From NCBI GenBank assembly GCA_023362775.1, contig JALMGJ010000025.1, positions 7,780,001 through 7,844,000 of the forward strand: a DNA stretch of 64,000 bases, read 5' to 3'. This DNA comes from Charina bottae. Its lineage: Eukaryota; Chordata; Lepidosauria; Squamata; Charinaidae. The notes under the pieces are model-generated. The model did no database searches, was not told where the DNA came from, and saw only the letters and a program-made list of their open reading frames with translations. The translations under genes were made by a program, and so were the position numbers. Positions 7,798 through 60,219 of this stretch are shown in pieces. The number at the start of each line of letters is the position of its first letter. The first letter of the stretch is position 1.

Positions 7798-8309
7798 TTT
7801 CCTTTCCTTTTTTCTTTTTTGCAATAATTTTATTAAATGTTATAATTAAAAAGATAAAAGCTAATACAAACTAAAAAAAAATAAAAGAGTAAAAAAATAG
7901 AAAGTGCAGAAAAGAAAAGAAAAATAGAAAAGAAAAAAAGAAGAATATAGTAAAGAAAAAAAGAAATATATAAAGCAGTAACTTCCTCCTTCATCACAAC
8001 AAGTATAAACAATTTTAGTAACATATCACCTTCTCCTAAAATACAACAAATGATTTATTCTTCCCATATCTCATTTTATCTATAAACAAAACTTTAAAGC
8101 CTCGTCATTCAGTCCTAGTCAGCAAAAGTCCATTAAGGGTTACCAGAGATAGCAACATATCTATTTTAACCTTGATCAAATAAACCAATTTTATATTACT
8201 TCCCTTTACTTTTAATAATCTTGGCCTTTAATCCCTTTAAATAATGTCCTAGAACTTGATTTTTTCCCATTTTTATTTGTCTCTTCTCACAAAATCCTTC
8301 AAAACTTTA

Positions 8310-9080
8310 ACAGGTCTCTTTTATGGCTGTTGTGGGTCTTCCGGGCTGTGTGGCCGTGTTCTGGAAGTTGTGGTTCCTAACGTTTCGCCAGCATCTGTGG
8401 CCAGCATCTTCAGAGGGCAGGAGCACAGATAGAAGCAAAATCTCTGTGCCCAGGTAGAGTGGCAATGTTCTATTTATAGAGCTAAATTGTAGGAGATTAG
8501 GTGGGGTTTTTTGTTGTGTTGAAATGTTAACGAGTGGCTGATGAGCGTGATTAGCATGTTCATTGTGAGAAGTATTCCCATGTCCTGGTGGTTGGACTGA
8601 GTTCGTTGACCTTTTGCAGGCTGTGTTTTTCAGGACTGGTAGCCAGGTTTTGCTAATTTTTAAACTTTCTTCTTTTTTATTGTAACTGTGCTGGTGTTTG
8701 TGAATTTCAATGGCTTCTCTGTATAATCTGGTGTAGTGGCTTTTGGTGTTGTCCAGTATTTCTGTGTTTTCAAATAGGATTTTGTGTCCCGTTTGCTTGA
8801 GAGCATGTTCAGCTACTGAAGATTTTTCCGGTTGCTGTAGTCTGCAGTGTCTTTCATGTTCTTTTATCCTGGTGTGAATGCTTCGTTTTGTGGTTCCGAT
8901 GTATACTTGTCCACAGCTGCATGGTATGCGGTATACTCCTGCAGCGGTGCGGGGGTCCCTTTTGTCTTTTGCTGATTTTAGCATTTGTTGTATTTTTCTG
9001 GTGGGTCTGAAGACTGTTTGAAAGTTGTGTTTTTCCATCAGTTTTCCCATGCGGTCAGTGACTCCTTTGATGTAGGGCAT
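8310..9080 (-). CDS. PLE GIY-YIG endonuclease domain, open frame
   Basis: This open frame of about 257 codons contains the C-terminal endonuclease of a Penelope-like retroelement. It starts in the linker after the reverse transcriptase (MPYIKGVTDRMGK), followed by GVY at about residues 48-50, CSCG, YIG at 60-62, R66, an HTRIKEH block with E74, and an AEHALKQTGHKI block near 90-101. These are the GIY-YIG nuclease motifs in order. The C-terminal third is the element's 3' region read through, not a domain. With no reverse transcriptase it cannot mobilise itself. The frame is uninterrupted, which suggests a fairly recent insertion. It is not a host gene. Confidence 0.85.
8312..8323. repeat. TSD of nested PLE, left copy
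   Basis: AGGTCTCTTTTA is repeated exactly at 9084-9095. Confidence 0.85.
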
Positions 9081-9083
9081 CTT
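8324..9083 (-). mobile_element. 5'-truncated Penelope-like element
   Basis: It is a 760-bp insertion with a perfect 12-bp TSD, nested in the L1-type element. It encodes the GIY-YIG endonuclease end of a Penelope-like element. The 3' end on the minus strand carries the family-typical block GATGCTGGCCACAGATGCTG and a 3' end near the GGCTGTTGTGGGTCTTCCGG complement. The reverse-transcriptase domain is absent because of 5' truncation. Confidence 0.9.
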
Positions 9084-10084
9084 AGGTCTCTTTTAAATCC
9101 AATATAGGAAAGTTATCCAAGTCACTTTTCTGGTTTGTTACTTGTATGTCCCTTTTAATTATTAAGACATCAGTCGGTTTCATTTGTATATCCTGTATCT
9201 CTTCTTTTTCCAGATCATTCTTATAGCCATTTTTAAATCCACGTTCAAATAACTTTCAGTCTTGTCCGGTAGAACTTGTTCCTCTTCCATAACAGCATTT
9301 ACACACAGTCTATCTATAATGGCTGATGTTCTTAAAATTAACTTCTGAGTCCATTGTTCACAAATATCCTTCAATACGTCCAATGTTAAAGTATTTTGTT
9401 CCACTCTGTGTTAGCAAGTTGAGTTTAAGTGTATTTCTCCTTTAATTATAATCTTTAGTTCTCTCTTGTTCCCTCTAGTGTCCAACCTTCAAGTCCCATC
9501 CTATCATGTTTTTTTTTCAGAATTCAAATCAACAGCCATCTTCCATGGGAAGGATTCTTATAATTAATTTCAAAATCTTATTTCAAATCCATCTGGACCC
9601 TCAGTCCATTTATAACTTTCTAAAAACAACACTCTAATCACCTTTTTGCCGTTTATTCCCAAAAAAAGAAGAATTTTTCTAAGCCCTTAAACTCATACTT
9701 AAAACTTCTTTCTCTTAGGATTGAAGGAAACTCACCCAGTGAATGCCATAAAACTTGCTGTTCCGAAGATTCTTAATATTTGAAAAGCAGTGAAAAAGTA
9801 ATTCCAAAAGTGATTAAAAAATGAGGCTCAGCCGAGCTTTATGTCCATATAGGCTACATTATGGTTGTGGGCGTAGATGGAATCCCTCGATTCCCTAGCC
9901 AACTGCAAAAACCTTGGTTCCTGCAGTCTACTCACAAGGAGCAGCTGTCCGGTGTACATGTGGGCGATCTCACAATCTCTTCTTTCCCCAAAGAGATTTC
10001 GCCAGCCAGAGTCCGCCCTCCGGCCGCTGATCTCTGCCATAATGCTGTCCCCGCTCCTTCAGGGACGTCTAGCTCCCCAGAAGT

Positions 10085-10900: not shown

Positions 10901-13080
10901 CATGATAAATGCTTTCCTCTTTCATTCTGGCTTATACTGTAAATGTTTCTCAGTGCCTCATTCACAAACCTGTGCTGTTGTAGCTTCTTTATTTTAACAA
11001 ACTGCTTATTTTAATTATCTTACATGTACAAAAATATAAAGGGAAAATACAATCAATCAGTCAATCAATCAATCAATCAATCTAAAATTCAAAAAGAGGA
11101 CCCAAACACCCCAAATTACCCTTTAAAAACATTAATCTCCGTGATTCCATTGGTTCTTCATCTTTTTGGTCTTCCCTCCCTCATTAGTACCAAACTGTAT
11201 TTAATTTTATAAAATGGAAAGTCAGGCACAGATAATAGTCTCATAAGTTCTTTTTATAATTTTAAGAACATATAACAAAACAAAGGAACATGTTAACAAA
11301 GACACGTGAAATCTACCTAATGTAGTAAATACTGTAGGAATATTGGGGCATATTGAGTCTTGAAGCTGCCTTCCACTTAGGTGGGAACTCTTATGATTCA
11401 CTTAACATCTAACACAAAACAATATTTCAGGGAAGATAAAATACCGCTGCTGTTTGATCAAATGTACTGTTTGCCTGAGGTATAATTAGCATCTTAAGAG
11501 TAATTGAGGGATTGATTTCCCTGAAAACTAAAAATAAGGGAAACAGGCTTGCTTGTAAAGGACTGACAGAATATTGTTCTTTCATTTCTGAACAGTGTAG
11601 CAGATTGTTCTAAGGATACTGGAAGGTGAAGGCTGAGTATTTACCTTATGTACTGCCAGTATGAAATCATAGAGTTCCAGATTTGTGCTGTTACCAGAGC
11701 CTCTGAACTCACAAGCCAAGAAGCAAAATACAGTAAAGCCTCTATTATTCTTTGACAATAGATAAAAGGTAGATGGATCACCTGGAGCCTAGAAGGAACC
11801 AGAATTTATATCAACTGGTATTGCTATCAGCAGATCTGTTTGCAACATACTGTTTGACATCTAAAGATAGCCACCTTCGCCAAAGATAGAATACCTATAT
11901 TCTCAGACACAGAAACATACACATCTATGGTACTAATTATAGTGTCAACATTGGACCATATAGACATAGGAAACAAAGCTGGACTTTTACTACATATTAT
12001 CTTAATATTTAAAACTAGAAAAAGTTGAGTTACATAGAGCCCAAACTTGCAGGGGTTTATTTCCAATATGTTGCATGCACATCAGTATGACGTTTTCCAA
12101 GTACCTTTTACATAAACAATATTATTCACGGATTTTTGAAGCTATCAGAACAGAAGGATCACTTGCCCCATGTACTCCATGGCTTCCTTTGTTGCACTGC
12201 CATTTCTACACAGGTCTCCTTGTATTTTATCTGAGCAGGTTCCTCCACCATCTTTTTTGTGATCATTTCCTTGACTTCACGTCTCTCCAAATCCTCTCTG
12301 AGCTGAAGAATGTGAAGGGAAGGTTTCATGAAGGGATTTGGTGATATTTGGGAGATGTCTCTGTTGCTTTTGTTCATTTTTAAAAGTCTTCAAAACCTGA
12401 CATGAAATTCCTTGCATCTGCCTTCCTCAATCTAGAATCCAGGATGTGTTAGAGCTACAAGTATACAGTAAGCATATTATCCCAGCCTGGATAATAGTCA
12501 TGGTCATCCAAGCAGAGTTGATCTGTTCTCTCTATTCCCCCAAAACGGCAAGACCTATAATTCTTACTTAATGGTAGGACTCACAATACCAAATGAGATC
12601 TTTCTCCCTCTTCTGAATGGGGTGTGGGATATGTATGGAGACAATGTTTCTCTTGCTTGGATCTGAACAACCAGGGGCAGATAGCCTCCCAATGGAAATG
12701 CAGGGTTGCTACTGGCCCCTTGGCAACTGTGTTTGTCAACTCCATATATTTTTGAAGCATGAAAAAAAATGCTTACAAAATTGTTTAAGCAGAAACGATG
12801 GTAGAACACTGCCTGCATTGACACGTCATCACAGCAACCCTGCAATGTTATTGTTATTTCTATATTTCTGACAAAAAGAACAGGCTGGCCAATATTGCTT
12901 AAGAGTCATTTTCTATCTTACAGGAAATAAGTTGTTTGTTGCATTTTTTCTTTATAATCATTGTAATTTTTGAAGGAAGGCTGAAGAAGTGACTCTGAGC
13001 ACGGGTAGAGTCGTTTGCTCTTATCAATGGGCAATGAACTCAGTCAAAGAAGCACTATAAAATTACAATATTTAACTTTT
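10901..13080. other. Unresolved intergenic DNA with a small (AATC)n tract
   Basis: An imperfect (AATC)n microsatellite lies at about 11043-11082. Otherwise no gene or repeat is recognised; the short open frames resemble nothing. Confidence 0.45.
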
Positions 13081-13089
13081 TTAGCTTTT

Positions 13090-13627
13090 TATTTGTTGTG
13101 AAATGGCTCCCTCTTATTGTTTCCAAAAGGCTGGCTTAATATTTCACCTCCACCTCCAGCCTCATTCAAAGGGCATGTCAGGGTCAAGCCAACCCTGGCT
13201 CTACAGTTTCCTGATATCTCCTTTTTTGCCCCCTTTAAGATTGATGGAGCATTGGATGCAGATCACCATAGAGGAGATTAGGAGACTAGCAGACCGGATC
13301 TACCAAGATTGCCTATCCCTGAATTTTTTACATTGCCCTTGCATAGGGAGAGTGGAACAATGCTATGACCACTGCAGCTTCAACAGGGTGAAGGGATGCT
13401 GCCTAGGGAACGGTCAGATAAGAGACAGCATAGCCCCCAGGTGCATAGCAGGAAGAGCAAGAGGCTCAGAAGGGACCCTCACTAGTTTTTCAGGCTGTAA
13501 AGGTGACGGGGGGGGGGGGGAGAATTGTACTTTCAGACTTGTAAGATTCTGTTAATGTAGCTTTACAATAAAGTAGAATTAGCTTATCTGATCATGTTTC
13601 CTGTCTGGTCTACTTGGTAAGGCTGAC
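13090..13627 (+). repeat. Possible solo LTR, plus strand
   Basis: CAATAAAGTAG at 13566 is followed by about 50 bases that end GTAAGGCTGACA, like the R/U5 end of a retroelement LTR. A G-run lies at 13509-13520. The 5' border and TSD were not found. The 150-codon open frame inside (13103-13555) resembles no known protein. Confidence 0.35.
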
Positions 13628-13974
13628 ACGATCTCAACATCCCTCAAAGACACTAAATACTGTATATACAAAAAATGACAATGGAAAGAAGCTCTAAAAC
13701 CAGGACATGAAATAGCCATGTATATGCAAAGCCCATCTTCAATCACACACCCTCCTCCTGTGCTGGAAGCTAAGGAAGGATGAAACTAATCTCTGAAGTG
13801 AAGGACTTCCAAAGAGTGAAGGCAACTATGGAAAATGCCATCTCTTAAGACCTGGTTAGGTGACAGTGTTGTGGAAACGAGACTTGAAGGCATTCACTCT
13901 TCACTCATTGATCTGATTAGACAGGCCAATGAATGTAGAAGGCCATCCCATAGATAACCAGGTCCAGAGGCATA

Positions 13975-14640
13975 GAAGACCTTAAAGATGACAACCAGCA
14001 GCTTGAATCACACCCAAAAGCTGACTGACAACCAATGCAGGTCCCCACAAGCAGTGGGGGAAAAATCAGAAGTCTGCTAGTACTTTTTCTCACGAATACA
14101 TTTTATTACAAGATATAAGCTTTTGTGAGCTGCAGCTCACTTCATCAGATGCATAGAGTGCTAGACTGATGTAGGATTTAAACTGTGATGAAGCAGGGGT
14201 CTAGGAAAGAAGGGTAACATGCAGGTAACGTGTGAGATGGATTACAAGTACCTTATCAGTTAACAATTGTAATGTATTAGAACATCTGTGTGTGATGCCC
14301 TGTCACTGCTCAGGCTGCCACATTCTATACCAGCTGTAGCTTCTAAATCTTCTTCAAGAGCAGCCCCATGTAGAGTGCATTACAGTAGTCCAAGTGGGAA
14401 GTCACTAATGCATGAGTGACTGTGAACAATTCAAGGATGGTCACAATTGGTGCTCAAGATGTAACTGTGTAAAATTCTCTTTGAGCAGGAGCTGTGAGTA
14501 GATAACCACTTCTGAATGGGAAAGTGCAATCCCAGTCAAAGGTGGTATTTTCCTGGAATTGTTAGGTTCATCACCGAAAGCCACTCCATCTTGGAAGGAT
14601 TCAGGAAGACTCTATTCCTCTCCATCCAGACCCTGACAAT
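13975..14640 (-). mobile_element. L2-like LINE remnant with a possible PLE insertion
   Basis: On the minus strand, 14280-14420 reads as the C-terminal part of an L2 reverse-transcriptase ORF (ACTACTGTAATGCACTCTAC, then a stretch encoding an MGLLLKK-like series), parallel to the + strand copy at 42655-43103. The L2-like sequence is interrupted at about 14065-14310 by a block with AAGCTTTTGTGAGCTGCAGC then TCACTTCATCAGATGCAT, a phrase that recurs in squamate Penelope-like repeats. Both parts are decayed. Confidence 0.5.
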
Positions 14641-15178
14641 ATTCCATTATTATAATAAAAAGTAGGTGAGGCACCTTTCATAGATTTCAGTTAAAAACTC
14701 TTCACCAGTTTTGGCTTTATTTATATAACTGCATGATATCAATCACTAGGTTGGTGGTAAAGATCTGTTGGTACCTCCTACTATTTGAAGGAAAGCTCTT
14801 CCTATCGTGTCTGATGGCCTAGTATCATTTCGCATAATAATGTCTTACTTTAATAAAGGATAGGTGATCTAATTCCGAGAAAATGATCTGGACTGCAACT
14901 TCACTATAGTCTCACCATGGCCATATTGATTGGGCCTGATAGGACCTATCATCCAAAACTTCTGGAGGGAAACAAGTTGCCTATCTCTGTTCCTAACTTG
15001 GGAAGGGTGGCTACTTTGCCAATTATATGAAATATATTCAATTCAGGACAAAGGAAAGCTGAAATACAAATAAATTTGACCAAACAGAGCAATGTGGAAC
15101 AAGATACTATTGTAAAAATATTGAACAGAGGTGACGAGTGGGAAAGTGCATTTTCATTTATATTGCAAGACTGTATAA
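14641..15178. other. Unresolved intergenic DNA
   Basis: Nothing recognised. Confidence 0.4.
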
Positions 15179-15515
15179 GGGGTGTGGTGGCTCAGCGGGT
15201 AAGACGCCAGGCTTGTCGATCGGAAGATCACAAGTTCGGAGGTTCAAATCCCTAGCCCTGCGCGCGGAGTGAGCTCCCGCACTAGCCCCATCTCTTGCCA
15301 ACCTAGCAATTCGAAAGCATGCAAATGCAAGTAGATGAATAGGTACCACTTCAGTGGATAGGTAACAGCGTTCCGCGCACGTCATGCCAGCCACATGACT
15401 GCGGAAACGTCCTCGGACAGCGCTGGCTCTTTGGCTAAGAAACGGAGATGAGCACCGGCCCCTAGAGTCGGACACGACTGCACAAATGTGCGGGGGGAAC
15501 CTTTACCTTTACCTT
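15179..15515 (+). mobile_element. tRNA-derived SINE, full length
   Basis: The head GGGGTGTGGTGGCTCAGCGG gives an A box, and GGTTCAAATCC gives a B box. The body (AACCTAGCAATTCGAAAGC, then the TAGGTACCACTTCAGTGG block) leads to a tail of ACCTTT repeats ending at 15515. It is one of at least eight copies here. Confidence 0.9.
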
Positions 15516-16264
15516 ACCATATAATGATGTTGAGAACACTGCAACTTTGGAATTCCCTGCTGGATTTTGAGATTGTACTTCATGTAGAAATCAAGTTAAT
15601 ATTTCAATGAGATTGTCTCAATAGTATCAGCAATGATTGGCAATACAATCAATGGTAGTAGTAATATTATTCATAGACATAGCTTTCTTAGTCTGATGAG
15701 CTATTGATATTTAAGCAGTATCCAGTGTAAGTCTGTGAAAGATAGGCAGATATAAAGCAAATACAGTTAAGCAGTTAATTGATTTCAAGAGGAGAGCAAG
15801 GCATCTATTTAAATTTCTCCCAGTAGAAATAAACAAGGAGCTTGAGCACACATTTAAAAAACTTTACAAGAACTCTTTCTTCCTGGATTATTTCCTCCTA
15901 TTTGCACCCCTGTTCTGCTGGCATTAGGCTATAAACTTAAGTGCAAGGTATTGGTATCTCCATGTCAGCACTGGAAAGAAGGTTTGGGAAACATTTAGTG
16001 CTTCTTTGCTGAGTGCTGCTTTGTAATGTGAATGACCAAAGCAATCACTGAAGATTTAGAAGAGTTACATGGCACATGGTTTTCAATGGAAGTAGAGTAA
16101 CAATGCATTGTTTCATCAGTAAAGATTTTACTAAGAAAACTAAAATGATGATCTCCCCTTTCCCCAACTCAGATCCTTTCTGCACTATTCCCTAGCTATT
16201 TAGGAATATTTTTCAAAAGACAATAGTCCAGACTGGGTAGCAATTTACAGAATGTCTAGCCATA
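15516..16264. other. Unresolved intergenic DNA
   Basis: Nothing recognised. Confidence 0.4.
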
Positions 16265-16272: not shown

Positions 16273-16554
16273 CAGGGCTTTCCAAACTTTTGCCATTGGC
16301 GACACACCAACGGCCGGCACACAAAACCCTGGAAGTGCTGCCGTTGCGGCACGCTTTCGGGTTTTTGTGCGCCATGGCGGCGTCGGCAGTGGCGGCGTCC
16401 TGGTGTGTCGTGCAACAACCTGGAAGCGCTGATGGCCTGCTGCTGTGCGTGGCGGTGGCTGCGCGCCATCAGTGCTTCCGGGTTTTCGCGCAACACACTT
16501 GGGGCCCCCAGGCGACACAGTACTCTGTCACGACACACAGTTTGGAAAGCCCTG
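16273..16554. mobile_element. Nonautonomous hAT element (GCTTTCCAAA family)
   Basis: The terminal inverted repeats are CAGGGCTTTCCAAACT (left) and its complement AGTTTGGAAAGCCCTG (right), with an exact 8-bp TSD, diagnostic of the hAT superfamily. The 282-bp interior is CpG-rich and has no transposase. Three further elements with the same ends lie at 29095-31687, 38133-38358 and 60977-61235. The ends are similar to those of Charlie-like hATs. Confidence 0.9.
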
Positions 16555-21846: not shown

Positions 21847-21930
21847 AATCTAATCTAATCTAATCTAATCTAATCTAATCTAATCTAATCTAATCTAATC
21901 TAATCTAATCTAATCTAATCTAATCTAATC
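21847..21930. repeat. (TAATC)n microsatellite
   Basis: About sixteen uninterrupted TAATC units. Such perfection usually means a recently expanded, polymorphic tract. Confidence 0.98.
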
Positions 21931-22559: not shown

Positions 22560-23770
22560 ACACGTTCACACGGAGAAATAAGTGGAGTCTTCACACTTTA
22601 CACCTGTTACACGTGCGTGTACGCGTGGTGTTCTATTGTGACTCCCACGCCCCGTCGATCATGTAGACAAAGCTTGATTTGGGGGGGGGGGGTAATATCC
22701 CTCTCCTCCACTCCGCCCCCTTTTTCCGCTCTTCCAACTTTCGAAACAGGTAATCCATTTTGTGGGTGAACGTCGTCTACGCCAAGGAGGAGCAGGTTGC
22801 TCTTTTCGCTCGTATAGCCTCTACACCAAGCTAGCTGCAATTTTTCTCTTTCGAGAGAGCTGGAGGCGGCGGCGGCGGCGCCGACAGCTGCAACGCCCCC
22901 GCTTCCCATTCTGTTGCGCACGCACGAGCCCGGGTTGCTCACCCACATTCCGCGCGGCCGGGTGTGTGGTGGGGGGGTGGTGAGGAAGTTCGGAGTGCTG
23001 GGAGCGCAGACTGGACTGCCACAGCGGGAATTCCGCACCCCCTCCCTAAGACCCCTCCGTAGCTCGGGTAGCCCCCCTGCCTCACGCCCTCAGGAAGATG
23101 CACCCCGGGAGAGCGCTCGCATTCGCTTGCGCGCGCGGCTGGGAGCCGGGGCCCGGAGTCTCCACCCCTTTCGGCCTCGGACTCCGCCCCGAAAGCTGGC
23201 GACGGCGAGTCCAGCTAGTGAAGCGACGAGGTTGAGCGGGGAAAGGAGGCTATGGAGGGGAGACAGTTTTCTTCGCCTTCCTGCCGTTCCGCGAGGCGTT
23301 TGTTTTGATAGGCTCCGAAGGGGGAGGCTGCGGTGAAGAAGGGGCGGAAAAGGCGGGCTGCGCTGCAGCCAGGGAGACCCTTCAGCTTGCAGGCAATGGT
23401 CCACCCTCGCTGCCTTGCTCGTCCCCTCTTTCCCCCACTGGGTTTGAAGCTTTTGTTCTCTCCAGTTCGGGGCACAAGAGAGCTACCTGCCGCCGCCGCC
23501 GCTCCTGCCTCACGACGTCAGGAAAGTTCGAGGAGAAAACCGGCTCGGGGTTCGACCTCCTTTGGGCTGCAGAGCGTTCAGTTTGGTGAGGTTAAACCTC
23601 GGGCGGGGGCGGGGGTGAGGGAAAAGGAGGAGGCACGGTCGTCTAGGTAGGAGCGGCGGGACGAGCAGGCGACAAAGAAGGCTTGTGAAGAGGAGGAAGG
23701 GGTGTCCAGCAAACCTTGCCCTCGACAGTCGATTGGGGTGGGGGTTAGGGAGATGGGAGGCCACACACTT
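22560..23770. promoter_or_regulatory. CpG island, probable GPR63 promoter and first exon
   Basis: This is a dense GC-rich, CpG-rich block in otherwise AT-rich DNA. It holds a GC box GGGCGGGGGCGGGG at 23601-23614, an NRF1-like TTGCGCACGCAC at about 22914-22925, and a CGG-repeat-like GGCGGCGGCGGCGGCG run at 22867. No TATA box stands out. Plus-strand splice-donor candidates are TTTG|GTGAGG at 23586 and CTAG|GTAGGA at 23647. The open frames inside resemble no protein and vary by frame, as in untranslated GC-rich exons. It lies about 24.6 kb upstream of the GPR63 coding exon on the same strand, and human GPR63 also has distant noncoding first exons. Linking it to GPR63 is inference; it could serve another or an opposite-strand transcript. 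Confidence 0.65.
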
Positions 23771-24359
23771 CGCTACAAGCACTTCGGTCTACTTTTCTGA
23801 GGAGTTTAGGTTCAGGTCTCCTGCTGGGTTGGGGGGGGGGGTTAGTGTAGATTAGCTACTCCCTAAGACCGTAAGAGGCATAGGACACCCCCCCCCAAAA
23901 AAAAAGGAAAGCGAAGTAAAATTTTAACCCCAGCTGGTGATTTTGAGAAGGTAATGAACGAAGGGCTGGATCAGGTACGGAATGCGGGGTGTAGACGATC
24001 GTGTAATTGTGATACCTACGCTGAGTGCTTTAAAAGCGGGCAGCGCTGTTGTAGTGATCCGGACTCCTAATACCAGGACTAATTTCTAAACGAGAGGTCT
24101 TGGTCAGGCTCGAAGCTCCTCGCAACCCTCAGATTTGCTGAGGGCTACCTGTGGCTAAACATCTGTGAAGTTAAGAAATTCTGTGATTTGATATGCCCCA
24201 GGTTTAAACGCCAGCTTCCACAGCTAGGCTATGGGGGAACCTACCCCGCCTGTAATTAAGCTGTACTAAACTCCAGTGATCGCTTGGGTATCATAAGCAA
24301 TGAATGAAGTGTGTGTGCTTGTGCTTTTTCTAAAAAGTGAGCTTGCAAGTTAAAGGTAT
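23771..24359. other. Possible first-intron start
   Basis: No coding or repeat signal apart from G-runs at 23830-23840. Confidence 0.35.
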
Positions 24360-29086: not shown

Positions 29087-29094
29087 ATCTAACC
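29087..29094. repeat. Foldback hAT TSD, left copy
   Basis: ATCTAACC, repeated exactly at 31688-31695. Confidence 0.88.
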
Positions 29095-29171
29095 CAGGGC
29101 TTTCCAAACTTTTCATGTTGGTGACACGCCGTTTAGCCATGCATAATTTCGTGACACACTAATGAGGAGTC

Positions 29172-29405
29172 CCCGCCCCCGGCCCATGTGATTAGCTGCT
29201 GGCTCCAAACCCTGCCCCTGGCCCACGTGATTGGCTCCCGGCTCCAAACCCTGCCCCCCGGCCCAAGTGATTGGCTCCCGGCTCCAAACCCCGCCCCCGG
29301 CCCACGTGATTGGCTCCCGGCTCCAAACCCTGCCCCCAGCACACGTGATTGGCTCCCGGCTCCAAACCCCATCCCACGTGATTGGCTGCCGGCTCCAAAT
29401 CCCGC
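29172..29405 (+). repeat. Six-copy minisatellite with CACGTG-ATTGG units
   Basis: Six tandem units of about 33-41 bp read as variants of CACGTGATTGGCTCCCGGCT followed by CCAAACCCCGCCCCCGGCC. The core units contain an E-box CACGTG (variant CATGTG or CAAGTG in two), directly followed by ATTGG (inverted CCAAT box; ATTAG in the first), and a GC-box-like CCGCCCC in several. It lies inside the foldback hAT, between its left terminus and the GC-rich arm. Confidence 0.92.
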
Positions 29406-29452
29406 CCCACAGCCCGCCAGTCTTGTACTGTATGTATTGTATTGTATGTAAT

Positions 29453-30500
29453 TGTAGATCAGAGCTTTCCAAACTGTGTCGCGACATCGCGGCAAGGGCC
29501 CAGGTGTGTCACGGGAACCCGGAAGAGGAGGCCATGCACCACGTGGAGCCCCGCCCATCCCTTGCCACGCCGACAGATCCCTGCTCTGAACCCAGCTCTT
29601 CAGCTCTCGCTGCAGAAGCCAGGTAAGTTAGCAGCCCGGTAGGGCTGCAACTGGGGGGGAGGGTGCAATGACATCACTAGGCCGCCGCGCTGGGGTGGGT
29701 GGGGGGTGCAGGGACCGCGAAGCGTGGCGGCCGGAGACATGGCTTTTCCCTCCTGAGAAGTGCCAGTGACCTGGCAGCCGAGAAAGGGACGGTGAGGCGG
29801 CTCCGCTGCCCGCCTCGCAAGGCCCCCGCCCCGCGCCGTCTGCGGATCCGGCTCCCCCTTCCCCTTGGCGATGGCCCCAGACAGGCAGAGGCGGGACTGG
29901 GCGGGCGGACAGGCGGCGCTCTACGCCTCCGTGGCCTGGCTCGGCGCTTCCTCCCATTGCCTACAATCAGAAGATGGCGGCGGTCTGATGCGCGGCCTGC
30001 GAGAGCTGAGCTGGGGCCGAGCCGAGGGAGCCTGCCGGCGGCTCCAGCCCAACGAGAGGGCTCCCGGCGCTCCAGGGAGACCCAGCACAGGCGGCGGGGA
30101 TGGGGCAGAAGCAGGAGGAGAGGAGCTGCCGGCGGGAGCGCGGCACGAGGAGCGCCTCGCCGGCGCCTGCCCGGCTTCCACCGCGCTTCATCGGAGAAGG
30201 TAAGACGCCGCGCAGGCGGGTGGCTGAGAGGCAGGCGGGCGGGCAGGGGGTCGCCTGCAGCGGGCTCGTCCAACCATCCTTCCTGGAGCTGCTGGGGCCG
30301 GATGGAGCGGTGGGGGACTCGCTATTGCTCCTTCCAGCATGCCCTCCAAGCCCAGCTGTTCAGCCATCGATCAAGGATCGATCAGGCCCAGGGGCAGGGC
30401 TGGCTGAGGGGCTCGGGGGGAAGAGGGAAGACGGGTCCCTCTTGCCTGACACATCCTCACGCATCCTCCCCCCTCCCCCCGCAATATGGCAGCAATAACA
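29453..30500 (+). repeat. Left arm of the giant inverted repeat
   Basis: This arm pairs with 30632-31691. It contains an inverted hAT right terminus (CAGAGCTTTCCAAACTGTGT at 29457), consensus-like splice donors AGCCAG|GTAAGTTAG (29623) and GAGAAG|GTAAGACG (30199), and a YY1-like AAGATGGCGGCGG (29971-29983). Both donors and the YY1-like site are kept in the right arm on the opposite strand. By eye the arms agree at about nine in ten positions. CpG is dense, unlike flanking DNA. Confidence 0.92.
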
Positions 30501-30631
30501 ACCACAGCGACCACCACCTGCCGCGAAGGCTCTGGCAGAAATGGATCCAAGTGCGGGATGCTCTTCTGGAGAGTGGAAAGTGCAGGATCCCCGCTCATTT
30601 TTGGGGCTTTCCTTCTCTTTCGGGCCCTGCC

Positions 30632-31691
30632 TGTTATTGCTGCCATATTGTGGGGGGAGGGGGGGAGGCTGCGTGAGGATGTGTCAGGCAACAGGGACCC
30701 GTCTTCACTCTTCCCCCCAGCCCCTCGGCCAGCCCTGCCCCCGGGCCTGATCGATCCTTGATCGATGGCTGAAAAGCTGGGCTTGGAGCGCCCGCTGGAA
30801 GGAGCGATGCCGAGTCCTCCACCACTCCATCCGGCCCCAGCAGCTCCGGGAAGGACGGTCAGATGAGCCCACTGCAGGCGACCCCCTGCCCGCCCGCCTC
30901 TCAGCCGCCCGCCCACCGGCGCGGCGTCTTACCTTCTCCGACGAAGCACGGTGGAAGCCGGGCAGGCGCCGGCGAGGCGCTCCTCGTGCCGCGCTCCTGC
31001 CGGCGGCTCCTCTCCTTCTGCCCCGTCCCCGCCGCCCGCGCTGGGTCTCCCCGGAGCGCCAGGAGCCGTCTCGTCGGGCTGGAGCCGCCGGCAGGCTCCC
31101 TCGGCTCGGCCCCAGCTCACCTCTCGCGGGTTGCGGGCCGCGCATCAGACCGCCGCCATCTGCTTGTAGGCGATGGGAGGAAGCGGCAAGCCAGGCCAGG
31201 CCACGGAGGCGGAGAGCGCTGCCTGTCCGCCTGCCCAGTCCCGCCTCTGCCTGGCTGGGGCCGCCGCCAAGGGGAAGGGGCCTTGCGAAGCGGGCAGCGG
31301 AGCCGCCTCCCCGTCCCTTTCTCGACTGCCAGGCCGCTGGCACTTCTCGGGAGGGAAAAGCCATGTCTCCGGCAGCCGTGCTTCGCGGTCCCTGCACCCC
31401 CCACCCTCCCCAGCGCGGCAGCCTAGTCGCGTCCCTGCCCCCTCCCTCCCAGTTGCAGCCCTACCGGGCTGCTAACTTACCTGGCTTCTGCGGTGAGAGC
31501 TGAAGAGCTGGGTTCAGAGCAGGGACCTGTTGGCATGGCAAGGGATGGGCGGGGCTCCACGTGGTGCATGGCCTCCTCTTCCGGGTTCCCCTGCGACACA
31601 CCTGGACCCTTGCCACGACAGAGAAATGTGTCATATTGTGACACAAATGACACAAATATGTCACGACACACAGTTTGGAAAGCTCTGATCT
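30632..31691 (-). repeat. Right arm of the giant inverted repeat
   Basis: Complement of 29453-30500. The mirrored donors read CTTAC at 30931 (complement of GTAAG) and ACTTACCTGG at about 31476-31485. The arm ends at the hAT right terminus, and the pairing extends about 4-5 bases past it into the TSD (TAGAT against ATCTA). Confidence 0.92.
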
Positions 31692-31695
31692 AACC

Positions 31696-33860: not shown

Positions 33861-36110
33861 TAAACTTTTGTCTGTTACTTTAGGAAGGTGAGAACTTACA
33901 GGATTCTATGGAGTTACTGTGAAGACTGAAAATGGAGGGAGTACTACATAGTCCTACTTAACCTTTTTCTAGGACTGGATACTATTTGTAAGAAACCCCA
34001 AAGGGTTGTAATTTATTTGCAGGCTTGTGTTCATACATAGCTCATAAATAACTAAGAGCAGGTGTTATCCATCCTAGAAGCCTTAAGTTTATCCCAAAAG
34101 ATGTCCCTTGAGATGGAATCAGAAGTACTTTCCAGCTTCACAGCTGCCACATACAACCTGTTCTAAAGCCTGCTTATCCCTTGGCCAGAATATCCTCTTG
34201 CTCCAGCCCATTCTCAGTTTTCCCACAGAGATGCCTTGCATATAGTTTGTTTATTATGCTCAGGAAACTTATGGGCTGTATATTAGGGAGATCAGTGGTC
34301 TAGCCTTTTTTAAGTATAGGGATGATCATTGCTAACCCCCATTCTTCTAGAATGAATAGCATTTTGTCCATGAAGCCAGAATTTGCACCCCCATTCAACT
34401 TTTCCATTTGCTTTTATGAGTTTTGTTGGGAAATAGTCACCTTCAGGAATCTTTCAACTGTGCCATCAGATTTCTGACCTCAGCAGATGATATAGCCAGC
34501 CACTCAGGAAGAGGGGCATCTGATCAATGTGTAGGTGTAGCAGGCTCATCCCAAGTGTTGTAAACTGCTTGGAAATTCTCTCTCCCCCACCCCACACCCC
34601 CATAAAAGCAGGAATATGAGAGATCTGCTGTACAAAGTTTGTAATTGAGAGCCTAGTAGCAATATGCCAAAAAGTGCTAAGTCCTTGGTTGTAACCTGTA
34701 GTATTAATTTCTGCCAGAAAGCCATTGGCGCATCTCTTTTTCTATGCTTCAGATATGTTTAAGGCCCGTTCATTTTCAGAAGTATGAGGGCAGCTGACAA
34801 TGAGCTGGTCTTGAAGGCTTTTTAGGTTGTAATGAGTGGGGTGTGTGTGTGTGTTTTCTTTTTTAAAGCTACCACTCATTCCTGATTGAACTAGCTCTTA
34901 GATTTCAGTCTGTCCCAGTACACCCCTGTGGAGTTTTTGATATTATTAATTAGGTGCTCCAGTATCCTATGGATAATCCTACTCCAATGGTCCATAACTG
35001 ACTTCTATATGGTGGAATAGTTCTTGAACTGACCAAAAACATCACTTGAACTAAGCAAGTCAGTTACACCTGCTCACATTGCTTGATCTGCACATCTCCA
35101 GTCTCAAACTCAATATGAAGCTGGAACACAGTCTCACCAAGGGCTGGGCTATGGCAGAAGCTAAGAGTTAGAGTCAGTGGAAGGTAATTACTATCCAGAA
35201 ATATACATGCCTCTAGATGGCCATCTGCTTTACTAATTTAAGGGAAACCATTATGTAATAACAGGTGAGATTTTAGAGCATTTATGAGCGCAAATGTAAT
35301 CTATTTGCCATCGGTGCCAAGTAAATCCTGCTAGGTTGTCTATCATGTCTCAGAAGAAGTGTACACATAAATAAGCCTTATCTCCAGGAGTTAGGGGAGC
35401 AGCTGTGAAATTATGAAAATAGAGTCTCATCATTAGGACCCGTTCTAGCATTCAATTTGTCCCTGATAATGGTGTGTGCTGACCAGTTATGCCTTTTCTG
35501 TGCTGCCAGTTGCACACAGCCACTTCTGATAACTCAATATATTTATTGCAGTCATAAATCTTTCAGTAAAGTAACACAAAGCAGGCTACAAACTCGATGC
35601 TTTCTGCATAGGAAACAGGCACAAGAGCTTGTTTTAGCAAAAGTGTCTGGAAAATCTTGAGTTCAGGAAGACCCAAGAACAGTCTGTTTCCAGTCCAAAG
35701 TTGCAGGTAATCCAACAACCGAGTACGGTCAGAGTCACAGTGGTCAAGATGTGAAAAGAGACACCTAGACCAGTACCACTTTTACCATGAGTTAAGACAA
35801 TTCAGCATTTTAATGTCCCATGTGTACCAGGATAGGGGAAGGTTAATTCTTTCTCCAGCCTTTTTCTTTCCTGAGAAAAGCCCTTTTAAAGGGTTAAAAA
35901 AAAGCAGAGCAGCAGGGCAGCTACTGCAGGGCAGCTCTGCTTTTTCACTGTCCTTGCACCTATACTGTTTTCCTGGAGGACTAGTGGCTGCTTCAATAAA
36001 CTGGTTTTTTGTTTCAGTTTAGATGACATGCCAGACAGGGATTAAGCTATTATATAACAAACAAACATTGGATCAGGTTGTGGTTAAGACATTTCTGCTT
36101 AACCACAATT
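33861..36110. other. Unresolved intronic DNA
   Basis: 34000-35350 has wording that suggests an old LINE, but no diagnostic motif could be fixed, so no call is made. A (GT)n tract lies at 34840-34854. Confidence 0.4.
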
Positions 36111-36122
36111 TATACTACAGTA

Positions 36123-36430
36123 AAAGGTAAAGGTTCCTCCCCGCACATTTGTGCAGTCGTGTCCATCTCTAGGGGCCGGTGCTCATCTCTGTTCGTTAGC
36201 CGAAGAGCCAGCGTTGTCCAAAGATGCTTCCGTGGTCATGTGGCGGGCATGACGCGCGCGGAACGCTGTTACCTTCCCACCGAAGTGGTACCTATTCATC
36301 TACTTGCATTTGCATGCTTTCGAATTGCTAGGTTGGCAAGAGCTGGGGCGAGTAGGGATTCGAACCTCCGAACCTGCGATCTTCCGATCGACAAGCCTGG
36401 TGTCTTACCCGCTGAGCCACCACGCCCCCC
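36123..36430 (-). mobile_element. tRNA-derived SINE, full length
   Basis: A minus-strand copy from the ACCTTT-type tail (AAAGGTAAAGG) to the head (complement of GGGGGCGTGGTGGCTCAGCG). The probable TSD TACTACAGTA lies at 36113-36122 and 36444-36453, which leaves 13 extra bases (36431-36443) between the head and the TSD. It keeps both pol III boxes. Confidence 0.9.
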
Positions 36431-36453
36431 CATATTCTATCTGTACTACAGTA

Positions 36454-38124
36454 CAGATAGGCAATATTTTTGCAACGGTCAGAATCCACAGTCATGGATT
36501 CTGATAGATCATGATAGTTGAAAACTGATGGCAAAACTCCTAGATATTTTGAGATGGGTATTATATAAAAACTCTAGTATTAGCCCTAATGTAGGCACAT
36601 CATATTAAAAAACAAAAGCACCCAGAAAATTCCGTCCAAGCCTTATCTTCCTACAACTCGGTGTACTCCAGATATGTTGCAGTGACAACTCAGAAGAATT
36701 ATGTTAAGTTGCCTTGAATGTTTATATATGCAGAAAGGTGGAGTACAAGTTTAATAATAAAAGTCAACTAATGTTTCTCAGCTGGCATGACCACTGGGTT
36801 GGATTTGTAGTCACAACACATCTGGAGGACACCAAATCAGGAAAGCCTGATATAGTCCCTTCAGTCATTCTGTGATGGTGATAGTCTTTCTTTTTTTAAA
36901 GAGATATTTAAGAAATCCTAACCTATGGCAACTTATTTAAACTGCAAAATAGCTGAAGCTATTTCCAAACTATGAATTAGCTTGCTTTCACACATTTCAT
37001 AAAATGCAAAAAAGACCTCAAACCATCACATTGTTGTTTATATGTTATAGATGAATCTAACCTAAATGTGAAGGTTCAAAGTTTTGTTTCCCAGTATTTT
37101 GTCCCTCACTAAAGCATTTATGACATTTTCTTGTTTCTCCCTCCCTCCCTCTCTCTCTGTGATTTAACATTCCATAATTTGGGGGTAGGCTGTGATTATA
37201 AACCTTTTTAAAATTCCATTCTAAAAGGAAAGTTATGCCTTCACAGAAGGAGCCCTTTCATACAATGAAATCTTTGGATACTACTCAAAATATTTACTAT
37301 TTGCTTATATTTGTTGTAGTTTGTAGTTACTTTAAAATAGGCAAACTATGTACATGATTAAGAGAATGATCCTCAGACATGGGTACAAGTGTATTATTTG
37401 CAGGATAAGTGCTTGGAAGTACTTTTAATCTCTCATTTCTGGTGAAGATACTTCTGCATTGACACCTTTTGTTTGCATAACTACAACCGCATAAGAAAAG
37501 AAATTGCCTTTTCAGAGCATGTATTCCTTGTAAAAATATCATTAAAATAGTGGAGAAGAAAGAAAGAACATGCAGAGATATAAAGACAAAGTCTAGCAGA
37601 CTCATCATCATTGGCGATCACTCGTAGCCGAGTAAGATTGTCTTCCAAAGGTACACAGCAAAAGAGATTCAAAGACACTCTCAAAGCTAATTTAAAAAAA
37701 TGTAATATCAGCATTGAGAACTTGGAAGCCCTAACTCATGAGCGTTTCTAGCAGACTATACAGTAACTGTAAAGGTAGCTTCACAGAATGAAGAATTTCC
37801 TTGTATAGCACTTTAAAAGTCAGACAGTCTATGATTCCCTCTCTAACTTTCTGACTTCCATTCAAAAGTACAGTAGATGTTTCTAACTATTAATATTTCA
37901 ATTTTTAGCCATGTTAGTAGAGGGTACAATAGCTGAGAAGGCTGTTTTGATGTATGATTATCAGATATTCTAATTTGTACAATATCATGCATGCATTACT
38001 CTAAGCTCCATCCATATGAATGTCATATATTTCAAAAGGAGAACTTACCAAACCAAATTCATCCCTGAATTCAGGAAGTAGATTACTGATATGGAAATGT
38101 GAAGAGTCAGTAGTTAACTGCAAG
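36454..38124. other. Unresolved intronic DNA
   Basis: 36780-36850 carries a short diverged repeat phrase like that at 10265-10350. 37600-37660 carries a phrase (CATCATCATTGGCGATCACT) I have the impression of as repetitive but cannot place. Confidence 0.4.
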
Positions 38125-38132
38125 TGATAGAG

Positions 38133-38358
38133 CAGTGCTTTCCAAAGTGCCGCCGTTGGCGACACACCAACGGCAGCAGCGGTGGCAGTGTGCACGGCGG
38201 CGGTGGCCTCGCTAAAACGTGGAAGTGCTGATGGAGTGCCGCTGCCGCCATGCACACTGCCGCCACCGCACACGCCCCCGTGCCGCCGGCTTCGTGACAC
38301 AGTAAACTCTGTGTTGCGACACACTAAAGTGTCGCAACACACAGTTTGGAGAGCTATG
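38133..38358. mobile_element. Nonautonomous hAT element (GCTTTCCAAA family)
   Basis: The left end CAGTGCTTTCCAAAG and right end CAGTTTGGAGAGCTATG are TIRs related to the elements at 16.3, 29.1 and 61.0 kb. Flanking 8-mers TGATAGAG and TGATAGAC match at 7 of 8. The CpG- and CAG/CCG-rich interior contains inverted blocks (GGAAGTGCTGATGG, GACACACTAAAGTGTCG). Confidence 0.8.
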
Positions 38359-48331: not shown

Positions 48332-49588
48332 ATGGTTTTTTCTGCAACGCTGGCACCCGCTCATTCTGTGTCATTAAATGCAACTTTTATTGTCTATGAA
48401 AATGCCCATGCCAATATTACCACTCCGTTGATCTTGGTCCATAAGGGCACAGCACAGCTACTGAAATACCCTTTGGGTGCCATGGTTACAACTGAGGTAA
48501 CTCCTCTGACAGTCAATAGTACACCTGCCCTCCTGTTGCAAGGCTTCACCAGCTTGAGTCTGCCACTCCAGATCATTCTTTCTGCTGCCATGATATTTAT
48601 TCTCCTAGTTTCTTTTGTTGGTAACCTTGTTGTCTGCCTTATGGTCTATCAGAAGACTGCAATGCGATCTGCAATTAACATTCTTCTAGCTAGCTTGGCT
48701 TTTGCAGACATGCTGCTAGCTGTGCTGAACATGCCTTTTGCTCTGATAACCATCATCACTACCCAGTGGGTTTTTGGGGATGTCTTCTGCCGAGTCTCTG
48801 CCATGTTCTTCTGGCTGTTTGTCATTGAAGGAGTTGCCATACTACTCATCATCAGCATTGACAGGTTCCTTATAATAGTCCAAAGGCAGGACAAGCTGAA
48901 TCCTTACCGAGCAAAAGTCCTCATCGCTGCTTCATGGGTCGCAGCCTTTGTTGTGGCTTTTCCACTCTGTGTGGGGAACCCCAGCCTACAGATACCTTCA
49001 AAAGCACCTCAGTGTGTATTTGGCTACACCACAAACCCTGGTTACCGCACCTATGTGGTGGTGGTGGCTTTGATCTCCTTTTTCATTCCATTCCTCGTGA
49101 TGTTATATTCTTTTATGGGCATCCTCAATACTGTACGGCACAATGCAGTTCGTATCCATAGTCACCCAGATAGCATATGCCTCAGCCAAGCCAGCAAACT
49201 TGGTCTCATGAGCCTCCAGAGACCCTTTCAAATGAATATTGATATGAGCTTTAAAACTCGTGCCTTCACCACCATACTGATTTTGTTTATTGTCTTCATA
49301 ATTTGCTGGGCTCCCTTCACCACCTACAGCCTTATTGCCACATTTAACAGCCACTTTTATCACAAGCACAACTTTTTTGAGATAAGCACCTGGCTCCTTT
49401 GGCTCTGCTACCTCAAGTCTGCTCTGAACCCACTCATCTACTACTGGAGAATCAAGAAATTTCATGATGCGTGCTTAGACTTAGTGCCCAAGTACTTCAA
49501 GTTTTTGCCACAGCTACCTGGTCACGCTAGAAGACGTATCCGACCTAGTGCTGTTTATGTGTGCGGGGAGCACCGGTCAGTAGTGTAA
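48332..49588 (+). CDS. GPR63: GPR63, orphan/lipid-sensing class A GPCR
   Basis: A 418-residue plasma-membrane receptor, one short of the human 419, with the coding region in one exon as in mammals. GPR63 (PSP24-beta) is the closest relative of GPR45, is expressed mainly in brain, and has been reported to respond to sphingosine 1-phosphate and related lipids, though it is often still treated as an orphan. Seven membrane segments are visible with family motifs: GN at 97-98 (TM1), LASLAFAD with D126 (TM2), C153 at the start of TM3, IDRF at 176-179 in place of the usual DRY, C228 in loop 2 (disulfide partner), CWAP at 325-328 (TM6), and NPLIY at 366-370 (TM7). N-glycosylation sites are N16, N28 and N62. 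The tail ends HRSVV, a class I PDZ-type end; human ends in TVV. The start MVFSA matches the human start; a longer frame upstream has no ATG. Confidence 0.98.
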   Translation: MVFSATLAPAHSVSLNATFIVYENAHANITTPLILVHKGTAQLLKYPLGAMVTTEVTPLTVNSTPALLLQGFTSLSLPLQIILSAAMIFILLVSFVGNLVVCLMVYQKTAMRSAINILLASLAFADMLLAVLNMPFALITIITTQWVFGDVFCRVSAMFFWLFVIEGVAILLIISIDRFLIIVQRQDKLNPYRAKVLIAASWVAAFVVAFPLCVGNPSLQIPSKAPQCVFGYTTNPGYRTYVVVVALISFFIPFLVMLYSFMGILNTVRHNAVRIHSHPDSICLSQASKLGLMSLQRPFQMNIDMSFKTRAFTTILILFIVFIICWAPFTTYSLIATFNSHFYHKHNFFEISTWLLWLCYLKSALNPLIYYWRIKKFHDACLDLVPKYFKFLPQLPGHARRRIRPSAVYVCGEHRSVV

Positions 49589-57387: not shown

Positions 57388-58410
57388 TCAGTGCTCAGCC
57401 TTCCTTATGGTCCAACTCTCACAGCCATACATTACTACTGGGAAAACCATAGCTTTAACTATACGGACCTTTGTCGGCAAGGTGATGTCTCTGCTTTTTA
57501 ATATGCTGTCTAGGTTTGCCATAGCTTTCCTCCCAAGGAGCAAGCGTCTTTTAATTTCATGGCTGCAGTCACCATCTGCGGTGATCTTGGAGCCCAAGAA
57601 AATAAAATCTGTCACTGCTTCCATTTCTTCCCCTTCTATTTGCCAGGAAGAGATGGGACCAGATGCCATGATCTGGGTTTTTTTAATGTTGAGTTTCAAG
57701 CCAGCTTTTGCACTCTCCTCTTTCACCCTCATCAAGAGGTTCTTTAGTTCCTCTTCACTTTCTGCCATTAGGGTGGTATCGTCTGCATATCTGAGGTTGT
57801 TGATATTTCTCCCGGCAATCTTAACTCCGGCTTGTGATTCATCCAGCCCGGCATTTCTCATGATGTATTCTGCATATAAGTTAAATAAGCATGGTGATAA
57901 TATACAGCCTTGTCGTACTCCTTTCCCAATTTTGAACCAGTCGGTTGTTCCATGTCCGGTTCTAACTGTTGCTTCTTGACCCGCATACAGGTTTCTCAGG
58001 AGACAGGTAAGGTGGTCTGGTACTCCCATCTCTTTAAGAATTTGCCACAGTTTGTTGTGATCCACACAATCAAAGGCTTTAGCGTAGTCAATGAAGCAGA
58101 AGTAGATGTTTTTCTGGAACTCTCTTGCTTTTTCCATGATCCAGCGAATGTTGGCAATCTGATCTCTAGTTCCTCTGCCTCTTCGAAACCCAGCTTGCAC
58201 TTCTGGTAGTTCTCGGTTCACATACTGCTGAAGCCTAGCTTGTAGGATTTTGAGCATAACCTTGCTAGCATGTGAAATGAGCGCAATTGTACGGTAGTTT
58301 GAACATTCTTTGGCATTGCCTTTCTTTGGAATTGGAACGTAAACTGACCTTTTCCAATCCTGTGGCCACTGTTGAGTTTTCCAAATTTGTTGGCATATTG
58401 AGTGCAGCAC
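57388..58410 (-). pseudogene. Bov-B reverse transcriptase
   Basis: The open frame carries the RTE reverse-transcriptase blocks: NYRTIALISHASKV, AGFRRGRGTRDQIA, FCFIDYAKAFDCVD (first catalytic aspartate), GVRQGCILSPCLFNLY, RYADDTTLM (YADD catalytic pair) and a FLGSKITADGDCSHEIKRR block. It copies the element RNA at the nicked target. An in-frame stop near 57387 cuts it from the C-terminal segment (57025-57348), which holds ARRSNQSILKEI and a KYFGHLMRREDSLEKTLMLG block. The true frame extends upstream of 58410 to the break near 58527. Confidence 0.95.
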
Positions 58411-58517
58411 TTTAACAGCATCATCTTTTAGGATTTTAAATAGCTCAGCTGGGATACTGTCTTCTCTGCTAGCTTTGTTGTTAGTAATGCTTCCTAAGGC
58501 CCACTTGACTTCACTCT

Positions 58518-59219
58518 CTAGGATGTCCGGCTCGGCTCAAGGTCAGTGACCACACCATCGTATTTATCAGGGATATTAAGATCTTTCTTGTATAGTTCTT
58601 CTGTGTATTCTTGCCACCTCTTCTTAATCTCTTCTGCTTTTGTTAGGTCCCTGCCTTTTTTGTCCTTTATCATGCCCATCTTTGCACAAAAAGTTCCCTT
58701 GATATCTCCGATTTTCTTGAAGAGATCTCTAGTCTTCCCCATTCTATTGTTTTCCTCGATTTCTTTGCACTGTTCATTTAAGAAGGCCGCCTTATCTCTC
58801 CTTGCTATTCTCTGGAAATCTGCATTCAGTTGGTTATATCTTTCCCTTTCTCTCTTGCCTTTTGCTTCCCTTCTTTCCTTAGCTATTTGTAAAGCCTCAT
58901 CAGTCAGCCACTTTGCTTTCTTGCATTTCTTTTTCTTTGGGATGGTTTTAGTTGCTGCCTCCTGTACAATGTTACGAACCTCCATCCATAGTTCTTCAGG
59001 CACTCTGTCTACCAGATCTAATCCTTTAAATCTATTCCTCACCTCCACTGTATATTCATAAGGGATATGATTTAGGTCATACCTGAGTGGTGTAGTGGTT
59101 TTCCCTATGTTCTTCAATTTAAGCCTAAATTTTGCGATAAGAAGCTCATGATCTGAGCCACAGTCACTCCAGGTCTTGTTTTTGCTGATTGTATAGAGCT
59201 TCTCCATCTTTGGCTGCAA
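58518..59219 (-). pseudogene. Bov-B endonuclease-RT linker region
   Basis: This 233-codon segment runs from the frame shift to the next break and carries SDHELLIAKFRLKL (endonuclease C-terminus), a basic KTIPKKKKCKKAKWL stretch, and NNRMGKTRDLFKKIGDIKG, as in other Bov-B elements. It ends with a frame break near 58527 just before the reverse transcriptase. Confidence 0.92.
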
Positions 59220-60109: not shown

Positions 60110-60219
60110 ATTTTGTCAGAACTCTCCATCATGACCTGTTCTTCTTGACCTGACTTCATTGAGTTACGCAAGCCCCTTCGCCACGACAAGGCAGTGATCC
60201 ATGAAGGGGGGGAAATAAT

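Follow-up and report, generated by a model that had tools for sequence, protein, structure and literature searches.

The question raised by this locus is how a cut-and-paste transposon comes to hold two long, CpG-rich arms that mirror each other, what these arms carry and where they came from. The element lies in a 64,000-nucleotide stretch of a Charina bottae contig, which we call the window and treat at its full length. Our answer, to which we give a probability of roughly 0.6, is a non-autonomous Buster-like hAT element with opposed right ends and their cargo, which would have arisen by inverted duplication and been moved in trans.

Boundaries and layout of the insertion

The element is a single, non-autonomous hAT insertion of 2593 bp (∼2.6 kb) at positions 29095-31687, and one TSD, exact at 8/8 positions, encloses the whole unit. 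Its outer TIRs, CAGGGCTTTCCAAACT on the left and CAGAGCTTTCCAAACT on the right, have 15 of 16 positions in common, and the family TIR, given as CAGRGCTTTCCAAACT, is present at both outer ends. Both marks by which we assign it to the hAT elements are found here: the TSD is 8 bp long (8/8 in this copy; 8/8, 7/8 and 8/8 in three other copies of the family) and the short TIRs begin with CAG. A hAT unit had been proposed for this place by a sequence-only reading of the window, and its coordinates, TIRs and exact 8-bp TSD are all borne out. The parts of the insertion are as follows.

29087-29094, no strand: left TSD copy, 8 bp, ATCTAACC
29095-29160, + strand: family left end, 66 bp, TIR CAGGGCTTTCCAAACT with subterminal sequence
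29171-29408, + strand: tandem array of about six 39-bp units
29409-29459, + strand: spacer, AT-rich from about 29422, final five bases TAGAT
29460-29525, + strand: inner family right end, from TIR CAGAGCTTTCCAAACT to CCGGAAG, ∼66 bp
29526-30500, + strand: left arm cargo, CpG-rich, promoter/first-exon-like
30501-30631, no strand: centre, 131 bp, unmirrored
30632-31577, − strand: right arm cargo, mirror of the left arm cargo
31578-31687, − strand: outer family right end with longer subterminal sequence, ∼110 bp
31688-31695, no strand: right TSD copy, 8 bp, ATCTAACC

The element thus combines a single left end with two right ends that face in opposite directions, each of the latter joined to the same ∼0.95 kb of CpG-rich DNA, and a third, right-type terminus sits inside it. 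That each arm contains a right terminus had been noticed before and is confirmed, and each arm begins with it; the inner copy falls 42 bp short of the outer one in subterminal length. The 39-bp units of the left array bear a CACGTG E-box, a CCAAT box on the minus strand and a GC box, with a completeness that varies between units. Altogether the array holds four CACGTG and five CCAAT boxes, which are copies of one unit and hence not independent.

In a classical foldback element the arms extend to both outer ends. Here the inverted arms do form most of the element (2097 of 2593 bp), but the left 365 bp (29095-29459) lie outside the palindrome and the arms fall short of the left outer end; for this reason we file the element as a hAT with a foldback interior and not as a classical foldback element. 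The earlier description of the unit as a foldback holds for the interior, and the left 365 bp are a correction to it. Inspection by eye of the 94 open reading frames of at least 90 aa in the window brought no transposase to light; eight of them, three being arm frames, were searched against Pfam. An autonomous element of the family was likewise not recognised in the 64-kb window.

Family copies and target sites

A TIR scan of the window returned five pairs, and four of these are counted as copies, the large element included, so the family is dense for 64 kb. The fifth pair (12278-15559) was rejected as a chance pairing, with 5 and 3 TIR mismatches and a TSD of 6/8. The three small copies are listed below.

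16273-16554, + strand: small family copy, TSD ATCTATAG (8/8), GC-rich, hairpin-forming, fold z −7.95
38133-38358, + strand: small family copy, TSD TGATAGAG/TGATAGAC (7/8), GC-rich, hairpin-forming, fold z −5.67
60977-61235, − strand: small family copy, TSD TTCTATAG (8/8), inner 56-bp tandem repeat, fold z −2.17

As single strands, the first two fold better than 200/200 shuffles, while the third folds weakly, 4/200 shuffles being as good. This third copy is related to the large element at both ends: its identity to the left end (29095-29160) is 86.4% over 66 bp and to the outer right end 92% over 38 bp. Both arm ends and the copy at 16 kb also share a stretch beyond the TIR that ends in AACCCGGAAG; it scores 36 for the left arm and 35 for the right arm, with 30 and 33 as the respective best of 2000 single-base shuffles. 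Since this stretch is common to the arms and the small copy, the ∼66 bp of the inner end and the ∼110 bp of the outer end belong to the right end of the transposon itself, with the cargo beginning after them, bar a weak extension of ∼30 bases. It may be added that the observed score of the right arm (35) exceeds its best shuffle (33) by little.

All four copies have TA at TSD positions 4-5. They conform in this way to the consensus nnnTAnnn, which the available portions of two papers give for Buster-group hATs (PMC3517528, PMC3499496), and by its letters the element's target site is Buster-like. One TIR pattern gave a single locus in IMG/VR (L001), where the 120 bases around it look like chance within a viral contig, and the hit was set aside. 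Full-text literature searched with 11-base pieces of the TIR yielded no transposon work by title among the matches listed.

Divergence of the arms

The inverted arms, 29460-30500 (1041 bp) and 30632-31687 (1056 bp), flank the 131-bp centre, in agreement with the layout put forward earlier (two arms of ∼1.05 kb around a 131-bp centre). Self-comparison of the window, which the sequence-only reading had suggested as a check, gave by BLASTN a single minus-strand match of 1033 columns with 86.7% identity (E = 0.0), and showed no further copy of the long arms in the 64 kb (self-BLASTN, E ≤ 1e-5). In a global alignment of the arms 914 of the 999 ungapped columns are identical. The remaining 85 differences (8.5% of sites) comprise 59 transitions, 42 of the 85 being CpG-type transitions, and 26 transversions; nine indels of 1-42 bp separate the arms in addition. 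Sites that are CpG in either arm diverge at 49 of 215 positions, other sites at 36 of 784. The resulting CpG/non-CpG ratio of 4.96 was not reached in any of 500 runs of a null model with a uniform rate and an equal definitional bias, for which the mean was 1.85 and the maximum 3.68.

Two copies that age in a methylated genome are expected to decay with such a CpG excess, and copies made by sequencing are not. Palindromes that are long and GC-rich are known to mislead assemblers, and an artefactual palindrome, such as a folded-back read would give at the library or assembly stage, was an outcome that the earlier reading had named as fatal to the capture idea. The amount of substitution, the share of transitions and of CpG-type changes among them, the unequal ends, the unmirrored left 365 bp and the clean TSD around the whole all speak against such an artefact, and we consider it extremely improbable. 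The differences between the arms are old divergence and not an assembly palindrome. The same excess suggests that the arms were methylated in the germline for at least part of their history, and it argues against the view of them as an always-active, permanently unmethylated CpG island. Along the arm the divergence is not significantly uneven (dispersion p = 0.136), which gives no sign of constraint.

Outside CpG sites the arms show 17 transitions and 19 transversions, while plain vertebrate decay would be expected to give a higher share of transitions.

Content of the arms

The arms have a GC content of 0.69 and a CpG observed/expected ratio of 0.70-0.72, versus a ratio of 0.27-0.30 in the rest of the window (1-29000 and 31700-64000). 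Under the composition limits for a CpG island (GC at least 0.55, CpG observed/expected at least 0.6, more than 500 bp) each arm lies in an island-like stretch (29101-30400, GC 0.67, observed/expected 0.70; 30701-31510, GC 0.72, observed/expected 0.78), and together with 22681-23830 these are the three CpG-island-like stretches above 500 bp in the window, which has 14 of at least 200 bp. Protection from decay, the other property of a CpG island, is absent, as the divergence ratio beyond the null maximum makes plain. Since their CpGs are unprotected, we term the arms CpG-rich or island-like and do not call them an island promoter. The following sites were found in them.

29623-29628, + strand, left arm: splice-donor-like GTAAGT (CAG/GTAAGT), the maximum of the matrix
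29971-29981, + strand, left arm: YY1-like AAGATGGCGGC
30200-30205, + strand, left arm: splice-donor-like GTAAGA (AAG/GTAAGA)
30927-30932, − strand, right arm: splice-donor-like GTAAGA, mirror of 30200
31152-31162, − strand, right arm: CAGATGGCGGC, one change from the YY1-like site and its mirror
31475-31480, − strand, right arm: splice-donor-like GTAAGT, mirror of 29623

Consensus splice donors had been reported for each arm, and CAG/GTAAGT and AAG/GTAAGA indeed occur in both. The first intron base is 29623 and, on the minus strand, 31480 for the former, and 30200 and 30932 (minus) for the latter. Scored with a splice-donor matrix, the sense strand of the left arm has two donors of at least 10.5 bits versus 0.059 expected from 1000 dinucleotide shuffles, and a best score of at least 12.4 was reached in 2 of the 1000. 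On either strand of the element, donor-like sites of at least 8.5 bits read inwards from the arm end in 8/8 cases, a count to which the two arms do not contribute independently. Acceptor-like sites are also present under a loose rule (six on the plus strand, five on the minus strand), so that a first-exon pattern of donors only is unproven. Each arm has in addition one CACGTG and one CCGGAAG. The claim of a YY1-like site in each arm stands for the left arm, which has AAGATGGCGGC exactly, and not for the right arm, which has CAGATGGCGGC; we take AAGATGGCGGC to be YY1-like, and presume likewise for the other transcription-factor motif names used for this element.

A coding cargo was considered and rejected. 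Three arm frames had no Pfam match at E ≤ 0.001, and predicted-protein searches at E ≤ 0.01 retained 0 of 259 candidates for one arm frame and 0 of 7978 for an alignment of one frame per arm. The arm substitutions are spread evenly over codon positions (30, 30, 25), with no position favoured. Rfam likewise gave no match at gathering scores. The best fit to the cargo, and a plausible one, would be a promoter with two alternative first exons. The promoter or first-exon character that the sequence-only reading had seen in the arms is plausible in this light, and the excess of donors adds to it.

Whether such a cargo would have come from a host gene is a separate matter. The arm might instead be the family's own promoter and first exon or exons, and the element a derivative of an autonomous hAT, internally deleted, with its right end duplicated and without any host DNA. 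Family right-end sequence begins both arms, and the donors read inwards from the end, as expected of a first exon that belongs to the element. Two short family copies (226 and 282 bp) are also GC-rich, and the small copies have CCGGAAG-like and GATGGCG-like motifs; the high GC may be a trait of the transposon family as such. However, past CCGGAAG the arm continues into the 16-kb copy as a weak gapped extension of ∼30 bases, BLASTN of the arm versus the 16-kb and 61-kb copies (E ≤ 0.01) finds matches at the ends only, and the window shows no recognisable autonomous element. We hold this origin from the family itself to be a serious possibility, though the less likely one. For the putative cargo taken alone, a host gene would be the somewhat likelier source and an unseen autonomous transposon the less likely one.

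Origin of the palindrome

The inner right end starts exactly at the first TIR base. The five bases before it, TAGAT, are the reverse complement of TSD positions 1-5, whereby the palindrome extends five bases past the transposon edge. A five-base match of this kind is expected by chance about once in a thousand. TAGAT looks like target-site flank, and its position beside the inner end makes it likely that the inverted duplication crossed the edge of the transposon. An inverted duplication had been assumed earlier, and the aligned arms together with an inner end that has TSD-like flanking bases lend it support. It should be noted, however, that TCTA recurs in the target sites, being found in 4/4 TSDs on one strand or the other, so that the flank of an older insertion would match fairly often; ATCTA beside the inner end may thus reflect chance or target preference.

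We propose that the transposon probably captured a putative promoter whose two alternative first exons read inwards from the end, that the right end was then probably duplicated in inverted orientation along with a small number of adjacent target bases, and that transposase supplied in trans likely mobilised the product. Two routes might have led to the present arrangement. TAGAT could stem from the present TSD, whose first five bases would have been copied along with the end by a duplication in place. Alternatively, it could have flanked an older insertion, the right end of which became joined to a left end nearby, the two then moving as a composite. By either route the duplicated or joined DNA would have crossed a transposon end. 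The inner end was likely a poor substrate and the outer pair of ends the one that was used, since the inner end has the shorter subterminal region and since another hAT, Hermes, needs at least ∼220 bases at each of its two termini to move effectively in cells, according to the part of the study available to us (PMC10368747).

The second route can be put more fully: the palindrome 29460-31687, with right ends on both sides, would have stood beside a left-end copy, and the outer ends would then have moved the pair, with the ∼50 bp between them, as one macrotransposon. The exactness of the inner end to its first TIR base agrees with this, as do TTGTAGAT directly before it, with TA in mid-sequence as in the four TSDs, the AT-rich stretch at that place, which is unlike the rest of the element, and the density of the family in the window. 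On the other hand, duplication in place accounts no less well for the five bases that mirror the present TSD, and the palindrome itself is not bounded by a TSD at this locus (TTGTAGAT versus ATCTAACC). We regard this composite origin as rather unlikely and prefer an inverted duplication that was followed by movement in trans. An element of the preferred kind would have consequences at the RNA level, as its two convergent promoters would yield antisense transcripts and read-through would yield a hairpin RNA of ∼1 kb.

Comparison with known elements

Capture of host sequence by cut-and-paste elements has been described in plants. Also from plants come double Ds and the macrotransposons of maize, in which hAT ends in opposite orientation lie inside a larger mobile unit; we know of no counterpart in them to the CpG-rich arms. 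Long-armed non-autonomous hATs do have a precedent in vertebrates. The Atlantic cod hAT-derived MITE gadMor-hAT-1784 is multi-copy, has no ORF and has ∼600-bp inverted arms of 167-169-bp tandem repeats, as far as the accessible part of its description goes (PMC12368964). It shares with our element the non-autonomous state without ORFs, two long inverted arms, a short centre and internal repeats. In the arms of our element, in contrast to what that part describes, the DNA is CpG-rich with donor-like sites and there is a right terminus per arm, while the tandem array stands outside the palindrome.

The 8-bp TSD with nnnTAnnn is shared with Mar, a Buster-group hAT MITE of Drosophila (PMC3517528), and with TcBuster (PMC3499496), and the TIR beginning with CAG and the non-autonomous copies with Mar; the TIR sequence differs from both, so far as the excerpts of these papers give it. 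In the same portion of the Mar paper MITEs are derived by internal deletion, unlike the inverted duplication with cargo considered here. Plant Pack-TYPE transposons are, in the available text on them, non-autonomous DNA transposons carrying host DNA (PMC8903248); the putative host cargo of our element differs from what is given there in being mirrored and promoter/first-exon-like, not coding DNA.

Different from the cod element are the CpG-rich, donor-bearing arms, the inner third terminus and the target-like flank at that terminus. No squamate family with this layout was found in the literature library searched, judged from titles and abstract openings among the matches listed. If our reading is true, a vertebrate hAT with a mirrored promoter and first exon would give DNA transposons a direct way to spread promoters as well as antisense transcription and hairpin RNA. 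How inverted duplication proceeds in hATs can also be tested from sequence alone here, by way of the TSD-like flank at the inner end and the sister copies in the window that form hairpins.

Position relative to GPR63

The element has two neighbours that bear on a possible effect on the host.

22681-23830: CpG island, 1.15 kb, with the element 5.3 kb downstream of it
48332-49588, + strand: GPR63 coding exon, downstream of the element

The exon was identified by a best match of 94% identity to a cluster named for Erythrolamprus reginae (120 of 428 matches listed), and four other squamate clusters, again among the matches listed, have 88-89% identity. It begins 16.6 kb downstream of the element. 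The island is likely the GPR63 promoter, and if so the element would sit in intron 1. No donor of at least 9 bits was found in 22600-23950 with the splice-donor matrix, which argues against an exon-1 donor inside the presumed promoter island. As the element lies upstream of the exon, between it and the island, its plus-strand donors could splice into that exon. Splicing of the left-arm donors to GPR63 and a hairpin formed by read-through RNA are predictions, no firmer than that.

Could the element then be a selected locus that now acts as an alternative promoter for GPR63 or as a gene for hairpin RNA? Its place between the likely promoter island and the coding exon, with donors on the same strand, would suit such a role. 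A pyrimidine-rich, acceptor-like stretch, seen by eye, directly precedes the ATG at 48332, and as RNA the arms have a computed duplex of −2169 kcal/mol with ∼90% of the bases paired. The CpG decay in the arms and the even spread of divergence along them, with no sign of constraint, are at odds with selection, and we think this role very unlikely for the present-day element. Most likely it is without present function for the host.

The boldest version of our account would have a Buster-type hAT catch a host CpG-island promoter, mirror it across its own edge and now supply GPR63 with an alternative first exon; taken as a whole, this chain seems unlikely to us. If it were true, the element would be a mobile pair of convergent promoters together with a ready-made long hairpin, and the nearby GC-rich hairpin copies would mean that the family repeatedly builds palindromes.

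Small copies of the hAT family

Two small copies of the hAT family, at 16273-16554 and 38133-38358, are GC-rich and form hairpins on folding, and their interiors are unlike that of the large family member, the 2.6-kb insertion with mirrored CpG-rich arms. With two small hairpin copies besides the large element, the family may be prone to palindrome building. The family copy at 60977-61235 carries an internal 56-bp tandem repeat of two units, and a tandem array is also found in the large element, adjoining its left end.

CpG island, repeats and an open frame

Further features of the window are listed here.
8307-9092, minus: open frame, 261 aa
15158-15502, minus: CpG-rich stretch
22681-23830: CpG island, 1.15 kb, upstream of GPR63
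36027-36521, plus: CpG-rich stretch
57388-60115, minus: LINE with reverse transcriptase (PF00078) and endonuclease (PF03372), by Pfam

The CpG island is likely the GPR63 promoter; scanning 22600-23950 with a splice-donor matrix gave no donors of at least 9 bits. The LINE presumably resembles the RTE/BovB type. A Pfam search of the 261-aa frame returned no match, and we take this frame to be similar to a Penelope-like GIY-YIG endonuclease. The two CpG-rich stretches appear to represent a dispersed repeat. Their translations, compared by eye on the strands listed, have long strings in common. A perfect array of the pentanucleotide AATCT (16.8 copies) occupies 21847-21930.
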